Shown here: one piece after another, positions 6,201 to 9,593 of the stretch | How positions within the stretch are numbered: the stretch's first letter is position 1 | Layout: each line of letters starts with the position of its first letter | Virus record (IMG/VR): IMGVR_UViG_3300022752_002834 | Coordinates: 1 to 64,000 of that record | Length of the DNA stretch: 64,000 nucleotides | Direction: 5' to 3' (one strand) | Source of the DNA: a virus | The notes under the pieces: generated by a model | What the model saw: the letters and a program-made list of their open reading frames with translations, nothing else | Told to the model about the DNA's origin: nothing | Database searches by the model: none | Made by a program: the position numbers and the translations under genes

Positions 6201-7280
6201 ATGGCCGCTAATAATAGAATTTTTTATGCTTGCCAAGCAGTAGCTATAGGTAGATACCAAGTTGGCGGATCTGCGCCGGGAGCTACACCAGCTGAACTGC
6301 TAAAATCGGTTCACGGCGTTCAAAGCGTTGGTATCAATACAAGTTTTAATCTTGAACAAGCTTTCGAATTAGGTCAGATTTCTATTTATGAAAATATTGA
6401 AGGCTTACCAGACATTGAAGTAACAATAGAAAAAGTATTAGACGGCTATCCATTAATATACCACATGGCAACCAGTGGTGTAATAGAAGTCACCCCATCA
6501 ACAAATAGCTTGGTCGCAAGAGCAAAGCAAAGATGCAATGTTGCTCTTGGTATTTTTAGCGATGAAAAAGAAACAGTAAGTGGCGTTGCTCCAGTAGAAG
6601 TCTTAATGAGTGGTATGTATGTTAGCTCATTAAGTTACACCTTACCAGTTGATGGAAATGCTAAAGAATCAGTAACATTAGTTGGAAATTCTAAAGGCTG
6701 GTTTACAAGCGCCGGAGCTATCACAAATTCTTGGACTAATAACGTCGCGCTAGCACAAGCTCTAAACTTTAATAATGACTCTCCTATAGCAGTTGGTGGT
6801 ATTCAAAGACGAGAAGACGTTATGATGGCGAATTCTATATTACCCATATCAATTTATGGCGTTACACAATCAGAAACTGCTGGAAATAATTGGGATAATG
6901 TTAAACTAAGACCAAAAGCTCATATTCAAAATATTACTATAAGTACTGATCTTGGTCGTGAAGATATTTTAGAATTAGGACATAAAGAGCCATATTATAG
7001 AAGTGCTACATTCCCAGTAGAAGTAACTAGTGAGTTTGAGGTTATCGCTGTTTCTGGTGACTTTATAAACGCCTATGCTAATGGTGATAATACATCAACT
7101 CAAAAAATCCTAATTGAATTAAGAGATGGTACTACTTTTGATCTTGGTGATGAAAATAGATTATCATCTGTTAACTATACTGGCGGTGATGCTGGCGGTG
7201 GAAATGTTAGTATAACATATAGTTTTTCAACTTATAACGACTTAACAATACTGCCCCCATCTAACTTTGTTACACCATAG
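6201..7280 (+). CDS. Putative major tail (tube) protein
   Basis: A 359-residue protein with strong SD (AAAGGAG, about 7 bases before ATG) and its own promoter-like element. The N-terminal half contains FNLEQAFELGQISIYEN and LPDIEVTIEKVLDGYPLIY, a pattern typical of major tail tube subunits: a beta-barrel with a strand-loop-strand followed by a short helix. It is followed by putative assembly chaperones and the tape measure, the normal order tube-chaperones-tape measure. No sheath gene is present upstream, which supports a non-contractile tail. Expected to polymerise into hexameric rings along the tape measure. Two related beta segments (residues about 30-170 and 210-355) may be two tube-like domains. 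Confidence 0.7.
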   Translation: MAANNRIFYACQAVAIGRYQVGGSAPGATPAELLKSVHGVQSVGINTSFNLEQAFELGQISIYENIEGLPDIEVTIEKVLDGYPLIYHMATSGVIEVTPSTNSLVARAKQRCNVALGIFSDEKETVSGVAPVEVLMSGMYVSSLSYTLPVDGNAKESVTLVGNSKGWFTSAGAITNSWTNNVALAQALNFNNDSPIAVGGIQRREDVMMANSILPISIYGVTQSETAGNNWDNVKLRPKAHIQNITISTDLGREDILELGHKEPYYRSATFPVEVTSEFEVIAVSGDFINAYANGDNTSTQKILIELRDGTTFDLGDENRLSSVNYTGGDAGGGNVSITYSFSTYNDLTILPPSNFVTP

Positions 7281-7330
7281 TTAATTCTATAAATTCGATT
7301 AGGACTTTAAAAGGACATAAATAATACTAG

Positions 7331-7382
7331 ACTCCCGCAAATGAGGTTTTTATGAAACACCATGAGCGGGAGTTTTTTATTT
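7331..7382 (+). terminator. Terminator-like hairpin enclosing the next gene's start
   Basis: ACTCCCGC (7331-7338) pairs perfectly with GCGGGAGT (7366-7373), followed by an unbroken T tract (7373-7378) and ATTT. The 27-base loop contains GAGG and the ATG at 7352 of the following gene. As an intrinsic terminator it would lower transcription past the tail tube gene. A ribosome starting in the loop would melt the stem, so translation and termination may interfere. The regulatory role is inferred. Confidence 0.6.
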
Positions 7383-8404
7383 CTATGATAAGGTTCGGCG
7401 GATTATACATTGAAAAAGATAATCTTACATTATTGGTAAAACCGCTTACGATAGAACAGAGTTATAAAGCATCTTTAATATACAATAAAGCTTACGAACA
7501 AGCTATTATTGATGAAATAATGAGCGAAGACGAAATAAATGAATGGATGTTACAAAATGGATTATGGTCAAAGACTCATGAAGACAAAACAGAAGGTTTC
7601 AAAAAAGATCTAGAAAAATTGAAAATAGAAATTTATAATAACAGAAATGACTCCAAGCTACGCGAGCGTATACGATTATATATTCGCACTGGCGAAAAAC
7701 AAATGTCAGAACACTTACGAGAAAAATCCATATACTATCAAAATTCTAGAGAAGGATACGCACTATCTGAAAAAATAGCTTGGATAATAAAAAACTCAAC
7801 ATATTGCGATAATCAACTATATGACTTTAAAGATATATCAGTCTCTTATGTTGTTGATGAGTGGCAAAGCTCGGTTTTATCTGAAGGCATTATAAGAGAA
7901 TTAGCAAGAGAAGAACCTTGGAAATCTTTGTGGTCGATTAAAAGCAATGGAATCAAAAAACTATTCTATAATGAGGACAACCAAGAGCTAACACTAAACC
8001 AGAAAAATCTTGTTATTTGGTCACAGATATACGACAACATACAAGAGTCTATGGATTGTCCAAATGATGATGTTATAAAAGATGATGATCTACTAGATGG
8101 CTGGTTTTTAATTCAAGCTAAGAAACGCGAAAAGGAAAAATTAGAAAAGGAATTTGAGAGTGGAACAAAAAATGACAAAATTAAGAATGCTGGTGAAGTA
8201 TATGTGATGGTTGATCCTAATGATAAAGATAGTATTGACAAAGTAGATTCGATGAATGATTCTATATCTCAATTGATCAAAAAACAAAGATTCGAAGTTA
8301 TCAAACAAAAGAACGGCGCTTATCAACATGATTTTGCTGACGAAAAACAAAAAATGCAAATGCAAATTACAAACCAAATGAGGAACAACATAAGAGGAGG
8401 ATGA
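7352..8404 (+). CDS. Putative tail-assembly chaperone-like protein
   Basis: A 350-residue, charged, mostly helical protein between the tail tube and the tape measure, where tail-assembly chaperones are encoded. The start at 7352 is chosen because GAGG lies 5 bases upstream; it lies in the loop of a terminator-like hairpin. Residues about 57-175 resemble the protein encoded at 8748 in order and spacing (EINEWMLQNGLW against ELEKFMKEQGIW, then a long helix, then a Tyr/Cys-containing segment), so the two are probably paralogues. The C-terminal 100 residues are acidic-basic and low in hydrophobics. The stop overlaps the ATG cluster of the next gene. No enzyme motif is seen. Confidence 0.45.
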   Translation: MKHHEREFFISMIRFGGLYIEKDNLTLLVKPLTIEQSYKASLIYNKAYEQAIIDEIMSEDEINEWMLQNGLWSKTHEDKTEGFKKDLEKLKIEIYNNRNDSKLRERIRLYIRTGEKQMSEHLREKSIYYQNSREGYALSEKIAWIIKNSTYCDNQLYDFKDISVSYVVDEWQSSVLSEGIIRELAREEPWKSLWSIKSNGIKKLFYNEDNQELTLNQKNLVIWSQIYDNIQESMDCPNDDVIKDDDLLDGWFLIQAKKREKEKLEKEFESGTKNDKIKNAGEVYVMVDPNDKDSIDKVDSMNDSISQLIKKQRFEVIKQKNGAYQHDFADEKQKMQMQITNQMRNNIRGG

Positions 8405-8747: not shown

Positions 8748-9593
8748 ATGAGCAAGGATAAAGAAAAAGTCGTAGAAGCAGACGTTAATGGTAACAAAAT
8801 AAAAGTCGTTGTTAAAAAGCCAAATAATGTCACCATTTCACAGGCACAAAGAGTCGGAGCCAAGGCTTGGACAGACTGTGTTAGAGATGGAATTATGACC
8901 AAAAAAGAACTAGAAAAGTTTATGAAAGAGCAAGGCATTTGGGACGATGGCAAAGATAAGGAGCAGAAGACCCTTGTTGAAGAAATCGCCTCGCTAGAAA
9001 AACAGCTATATGTAGGCTCACAAGGCCATACAAAGCTAAAAGCTTCAGAAGGCAAAGATATTGCGATTAAAATGAGAATGAAAAGAGCAGAATTACGAGA
9101 CTTGATTGCGGATCGTATTTCTCTAGAGCAAAATACTGCTGAATCTATTTCGGATAATGCTCGTTTTGACTACCTTGTAGCAAATTGTGCATTTTATGAA
9201 AATGGACAGAAAGTGTATAACTCCTTAGAGGAATATCAGTCTAGGGCAGACGCTGAACCAGCATTTACCGTGGCCTCTACGCTCGCGGGAATGCTATATT
9301 CTGTGGACAGAGATTTCGAAGCCAAATTGCCAGAAAATAAGTTCCTTAAGATGTTTAATTACGTCAATGAGGATCTTAGTCTAGTAAATCAGTCTGGCGA
9401 AACGGTAGATTTAGAAGGTCGCAGAATAGACAAAAATGGTTACTATCTAAACAGCGAAGGTAAGCGTGTAGATAAAGATGGCAACCTCCTAGATGAATTC
9501 GGTAATTATGTTCCCACTGTGGAATATATTACAGAAGATGATTCTGATGAAGAGAAGAAAGATAAACGTAAGAAGAAAACAACGGATAGCTGA
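8748..9593 (+). CDS. Putative tail-assembly chaperone-like protein (paralogue)
   Basis: A 281-residue protein with a strong SD (AGGAGG, 5 bases before ATG). A short beta-like N-terminus is followed by a helical region (residues about 30-135), then residues about 135-215 with SDNARFDYLVANCAFYENG. Residues about 220-255 carry short repeats of the type G-x-R/K-x-D-x-x-G-N/Y-x-L (RRIDKNGYYLN, KRVDKDGNLLDEFGN). The C-terminus is a strongly acidic then basic tail. The first two thirds resemble the protein encoded at 7352. Directly followed by the tape measure, so a chaperone that coats it is a reasonable inference. Confidence 0.45.
   Translation: MSKDKEKVVEADVNGNKIKVVVKKPNNVTISQAQRVGAKAWTDCVRDGIMTKKELEKFMKEQGIWDDGKDKEQKTLVEEIASLEKQLYVGSQGHTKLKASEGKDIAIKMRMKRAELRDLIADRISLEQNTAESISDNARFDYLVANCAFYENGQKVYNSLEEYQSRADAEPAFTVASTLAGMLYSVDRDFEAKLPENKFLKMFNYVNEDLSLVNQSGETVDLEGRRIDKNGYYLNSEGKRVDKDGNLLDEFGNYVPTVEYITEDDSDEEKKDKRKKKTTDS

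Follow-up and report, generated by a model that had tools for sequence, protein, structure and literature searches.

The start of the gene that follows the tail-tube gene lies within an RNA hairpin that is real and is selected as RNA. We consider it probable that the hairpin, which is conserved in a large family of tailed phages without cultured members, is a lock on the ribosome-binding site (RBS) of that gene, opened by a ribosome on a short leader ORF and so gating the remaining tail genes; it may also act as a partial terminator in the branch to which the DNA studied here belongs. The window, by which we mean the whole stretch of 64,000 nucleotides that was analysed, comes from an IMG/VR record of 118,291 bases, and carries the following features at this junction.

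6201..7280, + strand: gene for the major tail-tube protein, 359 aa (AlphaFold model match)
7309..7315, + strand: SD-like AAAAGGA, the leader SD in 61 of 70 relatives and kept in the window
7324..7344, + strand: site matching the leader ORF of relatives, here ATA CTA GAC TCC CGC AAA TGA, with AUG there in aligned relatives
7331..7338, + strand: 5′ arm of the hairpin, ACTCCCGC (fold, pattern search, covariation)
7343..7346, + strand: GAGG, the SD of the next gene, within the loop and conserved in the alignment
7352..8404, + strand: next gene, 350 aa, between tube and tape measure, with its start codon (7352-7354) in the loop
7366..7373, + strand: 3′ arm of the hairpin, GCGGGAGT, which forms codons 5-8 of the next gene (GAG CGG GAG T..)
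7373..7382, + strand: T tract, TTTTTTATTT (Phe-Phe-Ile codons), unbroken in the window's branch

The hairpin and its neighbouring genes

The arms ACTCCCGC and GCGGGAGT form eight perfect pairs, six of them G-C, to which A-U and G-U pairs can be added on the outside, and TTTTTATTT stands directly 3′ of the stem, with a T run at 7373-7378 and then ATTT. The 27-nt loop contains both the GAGG and the ATG of the next gene, and can be closed in part by inner AUG/CAU and GUUUU/GAAAC pairs. The initial annotation had described a perfect 8-base stem with a T tract and with GAGG and ATG in the loop, and this is exactly what is found. A simple terminator scan missed the hairpin because it admits only loops of 3-8 nt. 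The 91-nt stretch around it folds with a predicted energy of -27.2 kcal/mol, compared with a mean of -14.4 kcal/mol after shuffling (z -4.5; equalled by 0 of 200 shuffles). The hairpin pattern occurs once in the window, with 0 expected, and the hairpin is one of seven in the 64 kb that combine a perfect stem of at least 7 pairs, at least 4 of them G/C, with a strong T tail. No second copy of the element was found elsewhere in the genome. A chance inverted repeat is ruled out by the fold z-score, the uniqueness of the pattern and the covariation in 45 and 70 loci that is described below.

Judged by its AlphaFold model, the product of 6201..7280 is a genuine tail-tube protein with a T5/P74-26-like fold: the model resembles major tail proteins, namely those of SH-Ab15497 (E 1.3e-12), P74-26 and T5. 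The earlier placement of the hairpin, across the beginning of the gene that comes next, is thereby upheld. The ‘strong element’ that had been suggested upstream of the tube gene finds no support, with 68 promoter-like matches where 66.9 are expected by chance. The label of assembly chaperone given to the 350-aa product is a guess, its position before the tape measure being the sole reason for it; the protein received no PHROG assignment and no PDB fold match. Its N terminus, MKHHEREFF, is conserved from position 7352 even in homologues that carry no hairpin, which rules out a start elsewhere, such as the ATG at 7388. Relatives have a shorter ORF behind the 350-aa gene that resembles residues about 14-163 of its product (E about 1e-15 to 1e-18), and a 281-aa ORF of the window (8748-9593) has a similar start, so that the pair of genes lying between those for tube and tape measure (7352-8404 and 8748-9593) looks paralogous.

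Relatives from environmental contigs

A tblastn search with the tube and 350-aa proteins against 50,697 annotated phage records found nothing. Homologues of both proteins are present in IMG/VR contigs, from which we assembled a hairpin-bearing set of 70 distinct junctions, all of them environmental viral loci. The genome bins in which relatives occur name SAR202, Verrucomicrobiales, Gammaproteobacteria, Flavobacteriales, Micavibrio and Heimdallarchaeota, and a host call by this route was dropped on account of their mutual disagreement. In L002 and L094, which have a gene inserted behind the tube, it is the downstream gene and not the tube that the hairpin accompanies.

Two loci are peculiar in themselves. 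L213 lacks the 5′ arm and loop that are both present in its near-twin L216, a loss that would destroy the gene start; the cause is a deletion or else a collapse of the assembly at this hairpin. L232 (CP070695.1, 45-52 kb) is a tube relative within a 4.9-Mb ‘Candidatus Heimdallarchaeota’ MAG chromosome, has no homologue of the next gene, and is either an integrated virus or a chimeric assembly.

Covariation and codon choice

Covariation of the stem in relatives, named beforehand in the initial annotation as a test on which its proposal could fall, is present in both sets. In a MAFFT alignment of 45 loci, made from sequence only, 93.3% of the stem cells are in standard pairs and five pairs show double changes. 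The double-changed cells number 31, compared with a mean of 14.1 after shuffling, and the covariation score is 0.242 as against 0.143; not one of 500 shuffles matched the observed value for cells paired, double-changed cells or covariation. RNAalifold agrees with the stem on the aligned relatives. Across the 70 loci, 657 of 700 stem cells are paired (94%), compared with 248-417 (35-60%) under shifts of the arms by 1-3 columns. Both outer and inner pairs have changed many times on the tree of these loci, with recurring exchanges from C-G to U-A, and native arm pairings are better than swapped ones. Examples of compensated arms are CTCCCTTT/AAAGGGAG (L016), TTCCCG/CGGGAA (L038), CTCTCGC/GCGAGAG (L208) and CTCTCGA/TCGAGAG (L211).

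The 3′ arm also leaves its mark on the protein-coding sequence. Codon 6 is CGG in 43 of 45 loci, while CGG makes up 1.7% of the arginine codons elsewhere in the same genes, and GAG accounts for 42 of the 43 Glu codons at codon 7, compared with 31% elsewhere. Such extreme codon choice within the arm shows selection at the level of the RNA, and the overlap of hairpin and coding sequence is strong enough to dictate rare codons.

The loop letters UGAGGUU..AUGAA are well conserved in the alignment, as they would be if the hairpin were an operator for a trans-acting factor. Such a factor might be an RNase III-like enzyme, an RNA-binding protein of the host or a protein of the phage itself, perhaps the one encoded by the next gene; that many relatives have another structured RNA immediately upstream also speaks for this. 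We nevertheless regard an operator as improbable, given that the conserved loop letters are accounted for by the SD, by the AUG and by coding constraint, and that the arms vary with compensation, which is typical of the recognition of structure rather than sequence.

A leader ORF over the 5′ arm

An SD of the AAGGA type followed 4-11 nt on by AUG or GUG is found in 61 of the 70 loci, where 23 would be expected by shuffling. The leader start lies 25-40 nt ahead of the main AUG, just upstream of the 5′ arm, and the leaders run for 1-17 codons, with all 61 stops falling in the interval from -21 to +14 relative to the main AUG. Their stops are often TAATG or ATGA, or a TGA inside CATGAG (codons 4-5). 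The most reduced leader, that of L008, is an AUG-UAA before the stem. Frames 0, 1 and 2 are used by 5, 23 and 33 leaders, respectively. An N-terminal extension of the main protein can be dismissed for the AUG leaders, as all five of the five in frame 0 stop before or at the main AUG, and a conserved leader peptide is ruled out by the differing frames and sequences. The leaders hold neither the conserved regulatory codons nor the slippage run of a leader-peptide attenuator. With frame and peptide both free to vary, it is the act of translating the leader, and not its product, that appears to matter.

The window itself belongs to the nine of 70 loci (with L002-L006, L101, L130 and L186) in which the SD is kept and no AUG or GUG follows. 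Its 7324..7344 has no canonical start; an AUA stands 8 nt after AGGA, and the TGA stop overlaps the GAGG. Use of this stretch as an ORF is speculative, and the missing leader AUG is the weakest point in applying the family model to the window. The site of the leader AUG reads ATA in L002-L005, L101 and L130 and ATT in L006 and L186; positions 7321-7326 of the window, at the same site, are ATAATA.

Between the tube stop and the leader SD, some relatives carry a further structured RNA in which a variable P1 stem closes the core UUGCGAUAGC..UUAGGANA..GCRAGU. It occurs in about 34 relatives besides L019, L027 and L035 (where it lies about 43 nt downstream of the tube stop), and is absent from the window. 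In 40 loci the sides of P1 pair with their own partners at a mean of -13.5 kcal/mol, compared with -5.9 kcal/mol with those of other loci, and the own partner is the better one in 40 of 40. A T run follows P1 in L230, L051 and L053. Eight loci gave no Rfam match for this RNA, which looks like a new motif, possibly a switch or a protein site.

The U tract and termination

As in an intrinsic terminator, the G+C-rich stem of the window is followed by a U tract, one that is often broken in relatives; the loop, at 27 nt, is not the short loop of most terminators. At codon 8, 32 of 70 loci have TTT and an equal number have TAT or TAC, so that about half of the hairpin clade keeps the stem but has its U tract interrupted by a Tyr codon. 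On the tube tree, intact and interrupted tracts follow the branches, with the window in an intact one, and T in the third position of codons 8 and 9 exceeds background only modestly. The stem, and not a terminator tail, is therefore the constant of the family. The initial annotation’s reading of the hairpin as a terminator is plausible for the window’s branch, where the tract is intact, but does not extend to the family as a whole, in which the tract is not conserved.

In a distant sister clade, T-tailed hairpins, mostly strong and with short loops, separate the tube from the next gene in 20 loci. L074, L075 and L077 have strong T-tailed hairpins within the coding region of the next gene, and the stems of L075 and L077 differ through compensating changes. 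Taken together, these hairpins suggest that some break in transcription at this junction is likely to be an old trait, and the intergenic terminators of the sister clade favour termination as the old job of the junction, which counts against the RBS lock.

A plain partial intrinsic terminator that ends the tube gene, and would cut transcription into the downstream tail genes, with the overlap of the next RBS a matter of incidental compactness, draws on these hairpins (the 20 of the sister clade and the three inside the ORF) and on the GC-rich stem with TTTTTATTT. It also draws on distance. A ribosome at a stop codon represses termination within about 27 nt (PMC4824070), and the tube stop is 50 nt from the stem; translation of the tube should thus not suppress a terminator here. 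We still rate a plain terminator as rather unlikely, in view of a U tract that is broken in about half of the hairpin clade with the stem retained and a loop that is unusually long. It also leaves unexplained the conserved leader ORF and the hairpin’s staying with the next gene upon gene insertion. Partial termination as a second function, in the branch with the intact U tract, is plausible from the sequence.

Discussion

We tentatively propose the following mechanism, in which the structure, its covariation, the codon bias and the position of the leader ORF are demonstrated, whereas lock, coupling and termination are activities that we infer. Since the stem encloses the SD and the start codon, a free 30S subunit cannot easily initiate on the next gene. 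The structure and the predicted cost of opening are both those of an inhibitory structure over a downstream RBS: in the window this cost is 12.8 kcal/mol, the highest of 16 gene starts tested there, and is predicted to drop to 6.4 kcal/mol once a ribosome occupies the 5′ arm; the family mean falls likewise from 12.1 to 8.0 kcal/mol with the upstream arm held. A leader ribosome that covers or translates the 5′ arm would open the stem and, finishing at or beside the main start, would allow translation of the next gene by unfolding together with termination-reinitiation coupling. Coupling through RNA unfolding and reinitiation is established (PMC12548453, PMC6728339), and uORF translation is essential for the next gene in uPPE2-ppe2 (PMC11260477). 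One point against such a lock is that the 27-nt loop might admit a ribosome unaided.

The initial annotation had a ribosome load directly on the GAGG and ATG in the loop, melt the stem and so let the polymerase read through. The SD and ATG are indeed inside the loop, and ribosomes close behind the polymerase do suppress terminators (PMC4824070). However, with the polymerase on the U tract the main start would have barely emerged, and a full 30S footprint would not yet fit; moreover, terminators less than 100 bp into a coding region were measured to escape ribosomal repression, and one that directly followed an RBS was among them (PMC4824070), and the U tract is not conserved. We therefore hold read-through by loading in the loop to be very improbable. 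The leader ORF over the 5′ arm, which is absent from that account, is on present sequence evidence the more likely way for a ribosome to open the stem.

In the window’s branch, the uninterrupted U tract behind the stem implies that a fraction of polymerases probably terminate there as well, so that the hairpin would serve as a weak attenuator to begin with and as a translation lock afterwards. Either effect would reduce the next genes relative to the tube. We take the RBS lock to be the main function and termination to be the second on the basis of the fit to the coupling model, the 50-nt distance from the tube stop and the data on terminators near ribosomes (PMC4824070). For the window in particular, a 30S subunit parked at AAAAGGA, or weak initiation at the AUA, would need to open the stem; alternatively, the next gene may simply be kept low. 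A wider proposal, that a dual sequential gate (a partial terminator read by the polymerase, then an RBS lock read by the ribosome) is common to a whole group of uncultured siphophages, and that in the window’s branch, where the leader start has decayed to AUA or AUU, its opening hinges on near-cognate initiation and hence on initiation-factor levels, strikes us as doubtful.

Tailed phages need many copies of the tube and few of the proteins that follow it, and the known solutions include frameshifting, terminators and weak RBSs. Here, a covariation-supported RNA element stands at the tube junction of about 70 distinct environmental phage loci, and provides a compact test case for how a terminator, a leader ORF and an RBS lock combine or replace one another in evolution, with the plain terminators at the same junction in the sister clade available for comparison. 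Within 7150-7500, Rfam 15 gave no match up to E 1, nor did eight relatives at the gathering score, and we found no description of the hairpin element in the literature searched, which leaves aside most subscription papers.

The individual features of the element do have counterparts. T-phi of T7, after gene 10, is a partial terminator behind an abundant phage structural gene, and the present hairpin likewise comes directly behind a gene whose product is abundant in the virion and ahead of genes for less abundant proteins; unlike T-phi, it is a putative terminator, has a long loop with the next RBS in it, and is under strong coding constraint. The E. coli pyrBI leader resembles it in that a short ORF, equipped with an SD of its own, extends over the 5′ side of a T-tailed hairpin, and ampC has a start-stop leader in a leader-ORF transcription attenuator, of which the AUG-UAA of L008 is reminiscent. 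Unlike pyrBI and ampC, the hairpin described here also contains the site at which ribosomes bind and start on the regulated gene, its leaders have no run of regulatory codons, and its U tract is not conserved.

In arrangement, the element also resembles the coupled systems MS2 coat-lysis, rpmI-rplT and M. tuberculosis uPPE2-ppe2, in which, as here, an upstream ORF enters a structured RBS and ends at or beside the downstream start. In contrast to these, the upstream ORF is a dispensable leader of 1-17 codons that shifts in frame, and is without its AUG in the window, while the 3′ arm is part of the coding sequence downstream, with a U tract behind it in one branch. The parts are of known kinds; what is new is their overlap in one hairpin, together with the coding constraint and the clade-wise exchange with plain terminators.
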